NCBI GenBank assembly: GCA_001802125.1
Contig: MGZK01000017.1
Location: forward strand, 1-45,377
Origin: Geobacteraceae bacterium GWC2_55_20
Lineage (GTDB): Bacteria > Desulfobacterota > Desulfuromonadia > Geobacterales > Pseudopelobacteraceae
Direction of reading: 5' to 3'
Length of the DNA stretch: 45,377 nucleotides
A model generated the notes under the pieces. It was not told the DNA's origin. It made no database searches and worked only from the letters and a program-made list of their open reading frames with translations. Both the position numbers and the translations under genes were made by a program. Positions 4,185 to 24,699 of the stretch are shown here, one piece after another. The first letter of the stretch is position 1. Every line of letters begins with the position of its first letter.

Positions 4185-4204
4185 AATAATTGTACGGAGC
4201 AGCC

Positions 4205-6034
4205 ATGTCCCAGCGTATCGCGATACTGCCGGAGAACCTTACCAACAAGATAGCCGCCGGTGAAGTTGTCGAACGTCCCTCCTCGGTTATTAAGGAATTG
4301 ATTGAAAACTCGCTGGATGCTGGGGCCACAGATATTTCAGTCGAGATCACCGCCGGCGGCCGGCGCCTGATCCGCGTCACCGACAACGGCCACGGAATGT
4401 CGCGCGAAGATGCGCTGCTCTCGCTGGAGCGGCACGCCACCAGCAAGATCAGGAATGACAGTGACCTGGAAAGTATCCTTACCCTCGGTTTCAGGGGGGA
4501 AGCGCTTCCCTCGATTGCATCGGTGTCGCGTTTCTGCCTGTCCACCCGCGAGGCGAGAAGCCTGGAAGGAACCGAGATCGTTGTGGAAGGCGGGCGAGTG
4601 CGCGATGTCAAGTCCTGCGGCATGGCCCAGGGTACGGTGATTGCCGTCGAACAGATATTTTTCAACACTCCGGCCCGCCTCAAATTCATGAAGAGTTCGG
4701 AGACCGAGGCCGGTCATGTTGGCGATGTGATGGCCCGGCTGGCGGTTTCCCGTCCGGATGCGTCCTTCAGCTGTATCAGCGATGGACGTGAAATCCTGCG
4801 GGTGCAGCGCAGCGACCTGCAACGGCGACTATCACAAGTTGTCGGCAAGGATACAACCTCGAATCTGCACCGGGTTGACAGCGGAGGGGGATACGTCTCC
4901 GTCAGTGGCTTTGTTTCCGGCCCGTCACTGGTCCGTTCCGGCCCGCAGGCAATGTTCACCTATGTCAACGGACGCTTCGTCCGCGATAAAGTCGTGCAGC
5001 ACGCCATAATGCAAGCCTACCGTGGCGTGATCGATCGTGGCCGCTATCCGGTGGTGGCCCTGTTCATACAGCTTCCGGCGGGAGAGGTGGATGTCAATGT
5101 CCACCCCACCAAGCATGAAGTGCGATTCCGGCATCAATCAACCGTGCATGACGGGATACAGGCAGCCGTGGAAGGTGTGCTGCGGTTTTCGCCATGGCTG
5201 TCCGGCAAACCCGTGGCGACAACATCGCTGCCCGTTCCGCCGCCTGCCCAGGCCTATCGCGAAAGGATCGCGGCCGCTGCGCAGGCTTCGCTGGCGCTTC
5301 CCCGTCGTGAACAGCATTATCCCCAGCCACCGGTTCAGGCCAGGGCGGAGGATAAGGGGACAATCCCGGTTTCCGAAGCTCTCCTGCCTGCCGCTGCCGT
5401 CGCTGAACCGCAAGTTCCCTTTCAGGCGGAGCAGCGCGCTCCGGCTGCCGGCTACTTCTCCTCACTGATGGTGATCGGACAGTTTCACGGTGAGTACATC
5501 CTCTGCCAGTCTGGTCCGGATCTGGTGATCATCGATCAGCATGCCGCCAGTGAGCGCGTGGCCTTTCAGCGTTTGAAACAGCAATGCCGGGAAGGAAGCG
5601 TCGAGTCACAGCGCTTGCTTTTCCCGGAGACGGTCGAGTTGTCCTTCAGCGAGGTGGCCGTTGCCGGGCGCTTCCGGGACAATCTGGCCGGCATCGGTTT
5701 CGAACTGGAGCACTTCGGCGGAAATACGCTGATGATCGCCGCCGTGCCGCGTATATCCTCCGAAAAGGACGCTATCGGCCTGGTGCGGGAGATCCTGGCC
5801 GATCTTGCCGGTCTCGGAACCAGCGCTGCATTTCAGGAAACGCTGGATGAACTGCTCTCACGGATCGCCTGCCATTCGGTAGTGAGGGGCGTGCACGCGC
5901 TTGAAAACCTGCAGATCAGGGAACTTTTGCGCAGCATGGACGAGACTGAATTTGCCGCCAGCTGCCCTCACGGACGACCGGTCTCCCATGTTGTGCGCCT
6001 GGATGAACTGGAGAAAATCTTCAAGCGGACGTGA
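4205..6034 (+). CDS. mutL: DNA mismatch repair protein MutL
   Basis: A 609-residue mismatch-repair mediator that links MutS to strand incision. The N-terminal GHKL ATPase shows ENLTNKIAAGEVVERPSSV, ELIENSLDAGA (metal-binding Asn), DNGHGMSRED and TLGFRGEAL. A Pro/Ala-rich linker spans about residues 340-420. The C-terminal dimerisation domain carries DQHAASERVAFQ at residues 444-455, ACHSVVRG and SCPHGRP. The nicking-endonuclease motif of MutL proteins outside the MutH group is DQHA-x2-E-x4-E; here the last Glu is Gln455, so metal binding may be altered. ATG at 4205 follows GGAG; a TTG at 4190 lies only five codons upstream. The stop nearly abuts the chromate transporter genes. Confidence 0.95.
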   Translation: MSQRIAILPENLTNKIAAGEVVERPSSVIKELIENSLDAGATDISVEITAGGRRLIRVTDNGHGMSREDALLSLERHATSKIRNDSDLESILTLGFRGEALPSIASVSRFCLSTREARSLEGTEIVVEGGRVRDVKSCGMAQGTVIAVEQIFFNTPARLKFMKSSETEAGHVGDVMARLAVSRPDASFSCISDGREILRVQRSDLQRRLSQVVGKDTTSNLHRVDSGGGYVSVSGFVSGPSLVRSGPQAMFTYVNGRFVRDKVVQHAIMQAYRGVIDRGRYPVVALFIQLPAGEVDVNVHPTKHEVRFRHQSTVHDGIQAAVEGVLRFSPWLSGKPVATTSLPVPPPAQAYRERIAAAAQASLALPRREQHYPQPPVQARAEDKGTIPVSEALLPAAAVAEPQVPFQAEQRAPAAGYFSSLMVIGQFHGEYILCQSGPDLVIIDQHAASERVAFQRLKQQCREGSVESQRLLFPETVELSFSEVAVAGRFRDNLAGIGFELEHFGGNTLMIAAVPRISSEKDAIGLVREILADLAGLGTSAAFQETLDELLSRIACHSVVRGVHALENLQIRELLRSMDETEFAASCPHGRPVSHVVRLDELEKIFKRT

Positions 6035-7169: not shown

Positions 7170-7198
7170 AGGTGCCGGGATTCGACGGTGCCTTTTTT
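7170..7198 (+). terminator. intrinsic terminator after the chromate transporter pair
   Basis: AGGTGCCG (7170-7177) pairs with CGGTGCCT (7186-7193) in an eight-base-pair stem with two G-T wobbles, followed by a T run to 7198. This hairpin also argues against a helicase start at GTG 7188. Confidence 0.75.
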
Positions 7199-7226: not shown

Positions 7227-9734
7227 ATGCAAACTCACTTTACCCAGGACTGCCGCGCCTTGATGCGCCACGAAATTGCCGCTGCCGGCGGCAACGAGGT
7301 CTTTTTCATCGGCCGCACCAACGTTGAAGGTGTTGTCTGCGAGGTGGAAACTATCGCCCGTGGCAGCAAACAGGCCGTTCCAGCGATCATGGTGCGCGCG
7401 TCGAATGGCGATGTTGTCATTCATAACCACCCCACCGGCGACCTGACTCCATCGTCGGCCGACATGGAGATCGCCTCGGTGGCCGGCAACCAGGGCATCG
7501 GTTTCTCGATCGTCGACAACGACTGCCTGCGCTGCTACATGGTGGTGACCCCCCATACCGATAAGAAGGGCGAGCTGCTTTCACTGGAGGAAATCGGCCG
7601 CGTATTTGCCCCTGATGGAATGATGGCCCACCTGAAAGGGTACGAACAGCGCGATGAACAGGTGCGGATGTCCCTTGCCGTGGCCGAGGCCTTCAACCGT
7701 GACGGCGTGGCGCTGGTGGAGGCCGGCACCGGCACCGGCAAATCGCTGGCCTACCTGGTGCCGTCGATCCTCTGGGCGGTGCGCAACAACGAGCGGGTCG
7801 TGATCTCCACCAACACGATCAACCTGCAGGAACAGTTGATCCGCAAGGATCTGCCGTTCCTGGCGCGTAATTCAAAGATCGAATTCAAGACCGCGTTGGT
7901 CAAGGGGCGCGGCAACTACGCCTGTCTGCGCAAGCTGGAGCATGCCGAAGCCGAACCGTCCCTGTTTCCCGACGAATCCTCGGCCGAGCTTACCAGCATC
8001 ATCGAATGGAGTCACGCCAGCCAGGACGGCTGTCGCAGCGACCTGGCCTTCACTCCCCGCCATAGCACCTGGGAGGAGGTCTGCTGCGAGGCCGATCAAT
8101 GCAGCCGATCGCGCTGCAAGCACTTCAACCGCTGCTTCTTCTACCGGGCCAGGCGTGAATCGTCGGCCGCCAGGGTGCTGGTGGTAAACCACGCGCTGCT
8201 TCTGTCCGACATCGTGCTGCGGAAAGAGACCGGGTACGATGCCACCGCGATCCTGCCCCCATTTACCCGGCTGATCTTTGACGAAGGGCACCATCTGGAG
8301 GATGTGGCCACCAGCCATCTCTCTCTGATGATCGCCCGTAGCGGCATCCTCAAGCAGTTGCAACGTCTTGTCCCGCAAAAGGCCAACCGGGCCGGGCTGC
8401 TGACGATCATCTCGTCGCGCATCGCCCGCGATCTGCCGGAATCACAGGAGGGGCTGTACTCTGAACTGTCAGGTCTGCTGGAGAGCCATCTGCTGCCCAA
8501 GGCCCACGACTTGGCCGGCCTGACCGAACAGACCATGGATTGGCTGGCGATCTCCGTGGAACATGATTCCGGAGGATTGGCCGGACGGGAGCAGAAGCTG
8601 CGCATAACGCCCGAGGTGGAGCGCAAGGTCTTTTGGAACGAGTGCCGCCAGCGGCTGCACGGGCTGGCCGATGCGGTCAACGACTACACCTCGGCCATGC
8701 GCACGCTGCTGCGCCGCTGCGGCGATCTGCCGGAAAAACTGCGTGAAAAGCTGGCCGACCAGCTGCTGGATACCGGCGGTATCGAAGGCCGTCTGCAGGC
8801 CATGGCCGACGGGTTGCTGTTCTTTACGACCGATGCTGAAGGCTACTGCCGCTGGATCGAGACCAGGAATGGCAGCCGCGGAGTGCAGGCCCGTATCTGT
8901 GCCGCGCCGCTGGATATTTCCGGGCAATTGAAGGAAACCGTGCTGGACCGGCTTAAAACGATCATCGTCACCTCGGCCACTCTGACCGTGGGGGGGCAGT
9001 TCGGCTATCTGAAAAAACGTACCGGTTTCGGCCTGTTGCCCAAGGAACGCCTGTCGGAACTGCAGCTGGCGTCACCCTTCGATTATGCCAGCCAGGTCTT
9101 CGTGGCGATACCGGAGAATATGCCGGAGCCTACCGAGCCCGGCTATCGTGAAGCGCTGGAAAGCCATATTCTGCAGGCGGTGACTCTGGCACGCGGCGGC
9201 GCCTTCGTGCTGTTCACCTCCTATGACCTGCTAAATCGTGTTCATGCCGCTTTGGCGCCGCAGCTGGCCCGGTTGGGGCTGACAACGCTCAAACAGGGCG
9301 AAACCGGTCGCCACGCTCTCCTGGCGCAGTTCCGCAAGGAAGGCAATGCAGTGCTGTTCGGCACCGATTCGTTTTGGGAAGGGGTCGATGTAAAGGGTGA
9401 GGCCCTGCGGCTGGTGATCATCACCAGGCTGCCGTTTCAGGTGCCGACCGAGCCGGTCCAACAGGCACGGGCCGAAAAGATCAAGTCCGATGGCGGCGAT
9501 CCGTTCCGTGACTTTTCGCTGCCGCAGGCGGTGATAAAGTTCCGCCAGGGCTTCGGTCGCCTGATCCGCAGCCGTGACGACCATGGGGCGGTGCTGATCC
9601 TGGACCGGCGCGTGATCAACAAGAGCTATGGCAGGACCTTTCTGAGGTCGTTGCCGGAGACGGAGATAGTCAAGGGGAATTCGGGGGAGATGTTCGGGAA
9701 GATGGAGGCGTTTTTCAATTCCGAAAAAAGGTAG
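7227..9734 (+). CDS. JAMM (RadC-like) domain fused to a DinG-family helicase
   Basis: About 835 residues. The N-terminus (1-130) is a JAMM/MPN metalloprotease-like domain: upstream Glu24 in NEVFFIG, then HNHPTGDLTPSSAD, which fits HxH-x7-S-x2-D exactly (His66, His68, Ser76, Asp79). From about residue 135 it is a DinG/XPD-type superfamily 2 helicase: Walker A AGTGTGKS (166-173), an iron-sulfur cysteine set (Cys233, then Cys286/287, Cys292, Cys297, Cys303), the DEGH box (352-355), FGTDSFWEGVDVKG, and the final QGFGRLIRS arginine motif. DinG unwinds DNA and R-loops 5' to 3'. The start is uncertain: ATG 7200, 7227 and 7263 lack good ribosome binding sites; 7227 keeps the whole JAMM domain. It is transcribed alone. 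Confidence 0.88.
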   Translation: MQTHFTQDCRALMRHEIAAAGGNEVFFIGRTNVEGVVCEVETIARGSKQAVPAIMVRASNGDVVIHNHPTGDLTPSSADMEIASVAGNQGIGFSIVDNDCLRCYMVVTPHTDKKGELLSLEEIGRVFAPDGMMAHLKGYEQRDEQVRMSLAVAEAFNRDGVALVEAGTGTGKSLAYLVPSILWAVRNNERVVISTNTINLQEQLIRKDLPFLARNSKIEFKTALVKGRGNYACLRKLEHAEAEPSLFPDESSAELTSIIEWSHASQDGCRSDLAFTPRHSTWEEVCCEADQCSRSRCKHFNRCFFYRARRESSAARVLVVNHALLLSDIVLRKETGYDATAILPPFTRLIFDEGHHLEDVATSHLSLMIARSGILKQLQRLVPQKANRAGLLTIISSRIARDLPESQEGLYSELSGLLESHLLPKAHDLAGLTEQTMDWLAISVEHDSGGLAGREQKLRITPEVERKVFWNECRQRLHGLADAVNDYTSAMRTLLRRCGDLPEKLREKLADQLLDTGGIEGRLQAMADGLLFFTTDAEGYCRWIETRNGSRGVQARICAAPLDISGQLKETVLDRLKTIIVTSATLTVGGQFGYLKKRTGFGLLPKERLSELQLASPFDYASQVFVAIPENMPEPTEPGYREALESHILQAVTLARGGAFVLFTSYDLLNRVHAALAPQLARLGLTTLKQGETGRHALLAQFRKEGNAVLFGTDSFWEGVDVKGEALRLVIITRLPFQVPTEPVQQARAEKIKSDGGDPFRDFSLPQAVIKFRQGFGRLIRSRDDHGAVLILDRRVINKSYGRTFLRSLPETEIVKGNSGEMFGKMEAFFNSEKR

Positions 9735-22622: not shown

Positions 22623-22647
22623 ACACTGTTTAACTGGATTTGTGGCC

Positions 22648-24699
22648 ATGTCCCATTTTAATCTTGCAACCTCATACATCCCGCGAGGTGACCAGCCCCA
22701 GGCTATCAATGAACTGGTGGAAGGCATTGAGCGTGGGGATCCGCATCAGACCCTGCTAGGCGTTACCGGCTCCGGCAAGACATTCACGATTGCCAACGTG
22801 ATCGCCCGTACCGGTCGGCCGGCCTTGGTGCTGGCCCCGAATAAAACCCTGGCGGCCCAGCTGTACGGCGAGTTCAAGGAGCTTTTCCCGGACAATGCGG
22901 TTGAATATTTTGTTTCCTACTATGACTACTACCAGCCCGAAGCCTACATTCCCGCCAGCGATACCTTCATAGAGAAGGATTCGGCGATCAACGACGAGAT
23001 CGACAAAATGCGCCACTCCGCCACCCGCAGCCTGCTGACCCGGCGGGATGTGATCATCGTGGCATCGGTCTCCTGTATCTACGGCATCGGCTCGCCGGAA
23101 GCGTATTCCAGTCTGCACATTTTCTTTCACCAAGGTGAAGATTACGGACGTGACACGCTGCTGAAAAAACTGGTCGAGATTCAGTACGAGCGTAATGACA
23201 TGGATTTCCACCGTGGAACTTTCCGGGTGCGGGGGGATGTGGTTGAGGTCTTTCCTGCCTATGACAGTGAAAAGGCGCTCAGGATCGAATTTTTTGGCGA
23301 TGAGATCGAAACGATCAGTGAAATAGATCCGTTGAGGGGAACGGTGCTGCACAGGCTGTCAAAATGCGCGATCTATCCCGCATCACATTATGTTTCAAGC
23401 CGGGAAACCATGGGAAAGGCCATTGAGCAGATCCGGATCGATCTTGGTGATCGCATCCGGTATTTTCGTGCCGAAAACATGCTGCTGGAAGCCCAGCGTC
23501 TCGAACAGCGCACTTTTTTTGATATCGAGATGATGGAGGAGATGGGTTTCTGCCAGGGGATCGAAAACTATTCCCGCTATTTCGATGGCCGTCAACCGGG
23601 CGACCCTCCCTACACTCTGATCGACTACTTCCCGGATGATTTCGTGCTGTTTGTGGACGAATCTCACATTACCATCCCACAGACCGGGGCTATGTACCGC
23701 GGTGACCGTTCCCGCAAGGATACGCTGGTCAATTTCGGTTTCCGCCTTCCGGCGGCGCTGGATAATCGGCCGCTCAACTTTCAGGAGTTCGAGGCGCGTA
23801 TCCGGCAGGCGGTGTACGTCTCCGCCACCCCGGCCGATTACGAACTTGAGAAAAGCGGCGGTGTATTTGTCGAGCAGATCATCCGTCCGACCGGGTTGGT
23901 GGATCCGGTGATAGAGATCAGGCCGGCGACGGCAGGCAAATCACATCCTGACGCTCTCCTTGAAGGAGAGGGGGGCGGTTTCGGCCAGGTCGATGATCTG
24001 CTGCACCAGGTGCGCGAAACCGTAGCCAGGGGCGAACGGGTGCTGGTGACGACCTTGACCAAGCGCATGGCGGAGGAACTGACCAACTACTATCGCGAGT
24101 TGGGTGTGCGTGTCCGGTATCTGCACTCGGACATAGACACGATTGAGCGGATGCAGATCCTGCGTGATCTGCGGTTAGGCGAGTTTGACGTGCTGGTGGG
24201 CATCAACCTGCTGCGCGAGGGCTTGGATCTGCCCGAGGTGTCCCTGGTGGCTATTCTGGACGCCGACAAGGAAGGCTTCCTGCGTTCGTCCCGTTCACTG
24301 ATCCAGACCTGCGGTCGCGCCGCCCGCAACATCCACGGCAGGGTGCTGATGTACGCCGACAGCGTGACCCGCTCCATGCAGACCTGTATAAATGAGACCG
24401 ACCGTCGTCGTGTCCGGCAATTGGAGTATAACCGGGAATACGGCATCACTCCGGAATCGATCCGGAAGGAGATGCGTGCTATCCTGGGTTCGATAGAGGA
24501 AAAGGACTACTATACTCCGCCCGGGGATGTGGCTGAAGCGAGCGAGATTTACGGCGTTGCGCCCAAGGATATACCGAAGCAGATCAAAAAAACACGTAAG
24601 GAGATGCTGGCGGCAGCCAAGGATCTCGATTTTGAAAAGGCCGCGACTTTAAGGGACAGGTTGAGGAAGCTGGAGGGAATTGAACTGGCATTGCGTTGA
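22648..24699 (+). CDS. uvrB: excinuclease ABC subunit B
   Basis: A 683-residue helicase-like nucleotide excision repair protein that clamps damaged DNA after loading by UvrA and recruits UvrC. Visible are Walker [11 protein letters not shown], the damage-probing beta-hairpin region [16 protein letters not shown], the DESH box in [11 protein letters not shown], helicase motifs [28 protein letters not shown] and QTCGRAARN, and the C-terminal UVR coiled coil [20 protein letters not shown] that binds UvrC. ATG at 22648 is used; a GTG two codons upstream is an alternative. It converges on the cytochrome gene across a shared terminator. Confidence 0.96.

Follow-up and report, generated by a model that had tools for sequence, protein, structure and literature searches.

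The window analysed here is a stretch of 45,377 nucleotides from Geobacteraceae bacterium GWC2_55_20 (GenBank contig MGZK01000017.1), and the gene described below lies on its forward strand (Table 1). A reading made from the letters alone had described this gene as a JAMM metalloprotease-like N-terminus followed by a full DinG helicase with its cluster cysteines, and this anatomy proved correct by Pfam, structure models and fold matches. The open reading frame is real and lies where it was described. Its 835 residues were confirmed to form a RadC-type JAMM domain that is joined by a linker to an iron-sulfur helicase of the YoaA/DinG type, itself complete; the full-length model had a pLDDT of 90.0 and a pTM of 0.84. 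An alternative start is possible upstream (GTG at 7188). A methionine aligned with the ATG at 7227 in 47 of 49 readable homologous loci, the two exceptions being a leucine (L017) and a match that starts at residue 2 (L051), so the true start does not lie downstream of the JAMM motif, a case that the earlier reading had allowed for. The same window also contains uvrB (22642–24699) and an open reading frame at 4190–6034 that we take to be mutL.

Table 1. Features of the fusion gene, with positions counted from the first nucleotide of the window.
Feature	Position	Strand	Evidence
Whole gene: RadC-like JAMM domain fused to YoaA/DinG-type FeS helicase, 835 aa	7227..9734	+	ORF, Pfam/NCBIfam, model
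RadC-type JAMM domain, residues 1–108	7227..7550	+	Pfam RadC, model, fold matches
E24, expected catalytic Glu	7296..7298	+	82/83 rows
Predicted JAMM zinc site, H66-N-H68-P-x6-S76-x2-D79	7422..7463	+	H66, H68 83/83; S76, D79 82/83
Linker, residues 109–135, poorly conserved	7551..7631	+	Mean pairwise identity 0.31
Walker A, EAGTGTGKS, residues 165–173	7719..7745	+	Motif
Fe-S domain with C233, C292, C297, C303	7923..8135	+	Four Cys 83/83
Walker B / DEGHH, residues 352–356	8280..8294	+	Motif
Arch domain, approximately residues 366–535	8322..8831	+	Bounds by eye from predicted helices
Second motor domain, Helicase_C_2, residues 648–811	9168..9659	+	Pfam
C-terminal helix, residues 819–834	9681..9728	+	Model; near position of E. 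coli YoaA HolC-binding end

The N-terminal domain matched Pfam RadC (PF04002) over residues 7–83 with 25.6 bits against a cut-off of 22.1, and with 30.8 bits when the domain was scored alone; each of 30 homologous N-terminal domains also matched Pfam RadC alone (0.1 or better). Against the PDB, a profile built from these 30 domains identified RadC (2qlc, 6.6e-7) and gave weak matches to AfJAMM (1oi0, 0.066; 1r5x, 0.077), with an unrelated CoA transferase ranking between them at 0.023. The domain was modelled with confidence (pLDDT 91.7), and Foldseek placed RadC 2qlc as its nearest solved fold (E 2.5e-6). Structural alignment of the model gave Z 10.1 with Rpn11 4ocl (rmsd 2.9, 105 residues aligned), Z 9.5 with BubCD (rmsd 3.0, 109 aligned), Z 9.1 with PfJAMM1 (rmsd 3.2, 102 aligned) and Z 8.8 with RadC 2qlc (rmsd 3.2, 102 aligned), values of 8–10 that barely exceed the level reachable by unrelated models, and a Z near 8 can be unspecific. 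The glutamate and the HxH-x7-S-x2-D motif on a JAB fold are those expected of a JAMM/MPN+ protein, as judged from sequence and predicted fold; E24 would presumably serve in catalysis rather than in zinc binding. Across 30 rows this part of the protein was acidic, with a mean net charge of -5.4 (range -9 to 0). Elsewhere the window's genome has two RadC matches of the stand-alone kind, the frames being 311 and 185 amino acids long.

Conservation of the site was assessed in an alignment of 83 rows, related to each other. Besides the window it contains 82 loci out of 88 that were eligible, the others having been excluded for frames below 800 amino acids (L027, L040, L049, L051, L052 and L100); a plain helicase of Coriobacteriia (L053) was never part of it. 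E24, H66, H68, S76 and D79 were kept in 82, 83, 83, 82 and 82 rows, respectively, with the complete site in 82, and the cluster cysteines C233, C292, C297 and C303 were present in all 83. The HxH-x7-S-x2-D motif occurred in all 49 readable loci of the first homologue search, and the entire JAMM pattern in 114 of 118 frames, a set in which some genomes were entered twice; three of the remaining frames were cut or broken (L027, L051 and L100) and one represents a real loss (L099). These three counts rule out a motif that arose by chance or is rarely conserved, and homologues do not commonly lack the metal ligands, the circumstance in which the sequence-only reading would have given up a protease. 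Over 1653 pairs of 58 rows, mean pairwise identity was 0.519 for the JAMM domain and 0.511 for the helicase, compared with 0.307 for the linker and 0.319 for the arch, and the identities of JAMM domain and helicase were correlated (r = 0.85). A domain conserved as much as the helicase, and in step with it, is probably under selection. The data fit one old fusion inherited together with the helicase, with a domain that appears about as constrained as the motor.

In the helicase part, Pfam Helicase_C_2 scored 168.8 bits, and the best NCBIfam model was YoaA (575.5 bits, below the equivalog cut-off of 680). Walker A and B motifs, four cluster cysteines, an arch and two motor domains were all present, as in iron-sulfur helicases of the DinG/XPD type. 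The full-length model aligned with E. coli DinG bound to ssDNA and ADP-BeF (6fws) over 641 residues (Z 38.2, rmsd 7.1); E. coli DinG was the closest solved fold to the helicase part, with the Z of S. aureus DinG within 1 of it. YoaA and DinG are repair helicases that move 5'-3' (PMC9826845), and by analogy with this family the window's protein would be an iron-sulfur helicase with 5'-3' polarity and a role at replication forks.

Cheng 2025 reported that HolC is absent from organisms with RadC-like DinG and used this to support a separate role for the C-terminal helix (PMC11981726). This holds in the window's genome, which had no match to HolC (PF04364) and hence no HolC partner of the YoaA type, but it is not general: among 58 genomes from the class, 28 had a HolC match above the cut-off, in conflict with the published statement, and the N-terminal JAMM profile matched in all 28, one of them being the degenerate case G427 described below. 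The HolC-bearing genomes were distributed by order (0/29 in the window's order, 28/29 in the other orders of the class). E. coli YoaA requires an R-T pair (R619/T620) for HolC (PMC8378479). With the register set by aligning S613-x-P615 of E. coli YoaA against SLP, none of the 58 rows, of which one is gapped at this place and 14 come from HolC-bearing genomes, showed this pair, and the window's protein has no counterpart of it just before its C-terminal helix. Fusion and HolC therefore coexist widely, and binding through that pair is unsupported.

The taxonomic spread of the fusion was checked with the N-terminal (JAMM) profile. The domain was detected in 144 of 146 genomes and in all 59 genera of the window's class, at a single place in 143 genomes and in two pieces on different contigs in one (G498). 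Frames of at least 763 amino acids, as read from the list, were found in 136 of these 144, and the shorter ones may be contig ends; in G470, one of the two genomes missed, the helicase match (residues 565–832) stops at the end of a contig. In the window's phylum 38 of 395 genomes matched, 35 strongly and three weakly, the latter in frames of 244–262 amino acids. Plain helicases also occur in this phylum: among 20 genomes sampled from the 357 without a JAMM profile match, ten had a match to a DinG-type helicase at 1e-60, with frame lengths of 648–721 amino acids. The phylum of a Coriobacteriia genome gave no long-frame match in 198 genomes, a search that would miss degenerate domains, and 13 of these genomes matched weakly in frames of 191–385 amino acids, the size of stand-alone RadC. 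Contigs labelled Chloroflexi (L042) and beta proteobacterium (L020) carry the fusion with 49% and 80% identity to the window, respectively, and are possibly misbinned. Overall the fusion appears to be a chromosomal housekeeping core gene that is nearly universal in the class.

A mobile or phage origin was considered and rejected: searching plasmid and phage collections with residues 1–135 gave no hit at 1e-5, a test that misses relatives as distant as the Fusobacterium protein found with the whole sequence. When the whole protein was compared with 50 viral-contig loci found through helicase patterns, all matched from residue 100 at the earliest; the best 8 of 42 phage records matched from at least residue 113, and among the best 12 of 1091 plasmid records the Fusobacterium one alone starts at residue 1. 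The Geobacter LexA pattern is GGTT-N2-C-N4-G-N3-ACC. SOS control was likewise rejected, this pattern being absent from both strands of the window and found only once in total upstream of 112 loci (one orientation). No operon partner was evident in 90 loci. Many of the clusters there consist of shadow frames of the helicase gene; as neighbours we saw a small, convergently oriented membrane protein (47/90 loci) and a histidine kinase cluster (55/90 loci).

Our tentative reading, held with less than even confidence, is that the protein is a YoaA-type helicase with a competent JAMM domain in cis that would cut DNA-attached protein, coupled to translocation. The 5'-3' iron-sulfur motor would load on single-stranded DNA at blocked replication forks or gaps, meet a protein attached to the DNA and loosen or unfold it, and the tethered domain, putatively holding zinc, would cut the exposed polypeptide. 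In favour of this reading stand the intact site on a confidently modelled JAMM fold, the conservation of the domain in step with the helicase, the nearly universal presence in the class, and a helicase part nearest to E. coli DinG and to the YoaA profile. The acidity of the JAMM part adds a mild argument, since it suits protein as a substrate a little more than DNA. In E. coli, knocking out dinG causes hypersensitivity to covalent DNA–protein crosslinks induced by aza-C, dinG is not needed against tight non-covalent complexes or quinolones, and the authors suggested a special role of DinG in crosslink repair or in the rescue of broken forks (PMC4437897). Human FANCJ, an XPD-group helicase, unfolds a crosslinked protein by translocating into it, which enables cutting by SPRTN (PMC12279946). 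By analogy, the dinG phenotype and the FANCJ/SPRTN pair may be taken as indirect support for removal of protein from DNA. On the other side, Cheng 2025 states that RadC-like DinG has so far been without any research, and the same paper cites normal DNA-damage sensitivity of E. coli radC mutants (PMC11981726). The protease reading is also weakened by the lack of a LexA-type box in the window, and by three natural exceptions in which the catalytic residues, the whole domain or most of the site have been lost.

The first exception, G427 (L099), has A, T and E at the positions of E24, S76 and D79 and retains the two histidines as well as the motifs of the helicase. Compared with the other rows, its mean identity was 0.27 in the JAMM domain versus 0.45 in the helicase, and none of the other rows among the 58 had a JAMM identity deficit above 0.06. 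In the second, G428 (L139:5433-8397), which is the other class genome missed by the N-terminal profile, the helicase matches from residue 109 only, without the JAMM domain. Just upstream of it is a complete stand-alone radC gene, with 55 bases between the radC stop codon and the probable start of the shortened helicase. Seven other genomes of this genus (L117, L140–L145), as well as L037, encode the fusion in long frames, and radC is absent from the stretch around it. The arrangement in G428, present in one assembly, is possibly a split form of the fusion, or else a chance rearrangement. In L043, L044, L087, L100, L119 and L042, of which those that could be placed belong to one family, a stand-alone radC follows the fusion on the same strand, 0.6–1.5 kb further downstream; with G428, radC was near the helicase in 7 of 90 loci. 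The third exception is a record of Fusobacterium vincentii (L201:4001-6424), whose match begins at residue 1, covers 98% of the query and has 31% identity; this record of 2.1 Mb is filed as a plasmid and is chromosome-sized. Its N-terminal domain had no Pfam match up to E 1 and aligned with the JAMM profile over 131 columns with an hhalign probability of 92.6; for residues 1–108 only, the probability was 81.2 and the score 34.3, compared with a mean of 10.1 (SD 1.8, maximum 15.2) for 150 shuffled controls. In the ungapped part of the alignment E24, H66, H68 and D79 are replaced by S, R, T and E, and S76 is kept. We read this single sequence as a degenerate, apparently metal-free JAMM domain in the same architecture.

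These exceptions speak for an explanation that we consider rather unlikely, namely that the JAMM domain is mainly structural or regulatory, acting in docking or autoinhibition, and that the site is either an ancestral remnant or a fold element that binds zinc. In G427 the domain persists although three residues of the site are gone, the Fusobacterium domain remains recognisable after losing E24, both histidines and D79, G428 manages without the domain, and the DinG family already includes a subgroup with a pseudo-exonuclease (PMC11981726). Against such a role, 82 of the 83 rows retain the entire site, with E24, the residue expected to act in catalysis, among those retained.

We regard as unlikely a second explanation, in which the domain processes nucleotides or acts as a metal-dependent nuclease, occupying the position that the nucleases have in ExoDinG and EndoDinG. 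Iyer 2017 cited the fusion, predicted a nucleic-acid-processing role for the RadC clade and described a deaminase-like fold (PMC5512222), and RadC was also proposed as a nuclease by Zhang 2012 (PMC3482391); the prediction follows from the missing ubiquitin-tail groove and from the position in such fusions, which is that of the other DinG nucleases. The domain is acidic, its site is the canonical peptidase set and its fold matches are peptidases and RadC, all of which speak against a nuclease, although folds cannot decide the chemistry.

Very improbable is a third explanation, in which the domain removes a ubiquitin-like protein, whose clipping the sequence-only reading had raised, or a sulfur carrier from DNA-bound proteins: the JAMM fold, with BubCD among its matches, and four ThiF-family matches in the window's genome would accord with it, but Prok-E2_B, the one conjugation family searched, was found in only 4 of 146 class genomes (3 over the cut-off) and not in the window's genome, as against the domain in 144, so that dedicated ubiquitin-like deconjugation looks unlikely, and the RadC clade is said to lack the tail groove (PMC5512222).

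Returning to the preferred reading of a helicase that cuts DNA-attached protein, its more specific form is doubtful: a single polypeptide uniting a DNA translocase with a tag-independent JAMM metalloprotease would be a bacterial crosslink-repair enzyme, cutting protein off DNA during unfolding. A point against it is that the JAMM enzymes characterised so far are known as specific (iso)peptidases rather than as general proteases. Should the domain prove to be a protease, bacteria would possess a helicase-linked protease for DNA–protein crosslinks, and a testable substrate would be at hand for the RadC family, about whose activity there is dispute (PMC5512222, PMC11981726). With a domain that is nearly universal, yet lost once and catalytically lost once, a comparison is possible in environmental bacteria.

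Canonical RadC (2qlc) belongs to the same JAB clade as the domain of the fusion, by Pfam (30/30 rows) and by fold, but is a separate short protein and carries a helix-hairpin-helix part. FANCJ plus SPRTN offers a works-like comparison only: an iron-sulfur helicase and a metalloprotease likewise act on a crosslinked protein, as two proteins there and potentially as one polypeptide here, and the protease fold of SPRTN differs from JAMM. E. coli YoaA, like DinG, shares the complete helicase with four cysteines and is without the JAMM domain. ExoDinG and pExoDinG similarly have an extra N-terminal enzyme or pseudo-enzyme domain, which is of exonuclease fold rather than JAMM (PMC11981726). The fusion, its site and its resemblance to metalloproteases are already in print (PMC11981726, PMC5512222); in the passages compared from these two papers we did not meet its nearly universal presence in the class, its natural losses, its Fusobacterium form or its co-occurrence with HolC, and among the open-access papers listed we found no experimental study of the fusion and no test of the domain's substrate. 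The architecture was named 'RadC-like DinG' by Cheng 2025, with a type member from Desulfuromonas soudanensis and with JAMM metalloproteases already given as the nearest folds (PMC11981726), and the window's protein agrees with that description in both respects, having a RadC-like domain ahead of a DinG-like helicase and the conserved E, H, H, D site.
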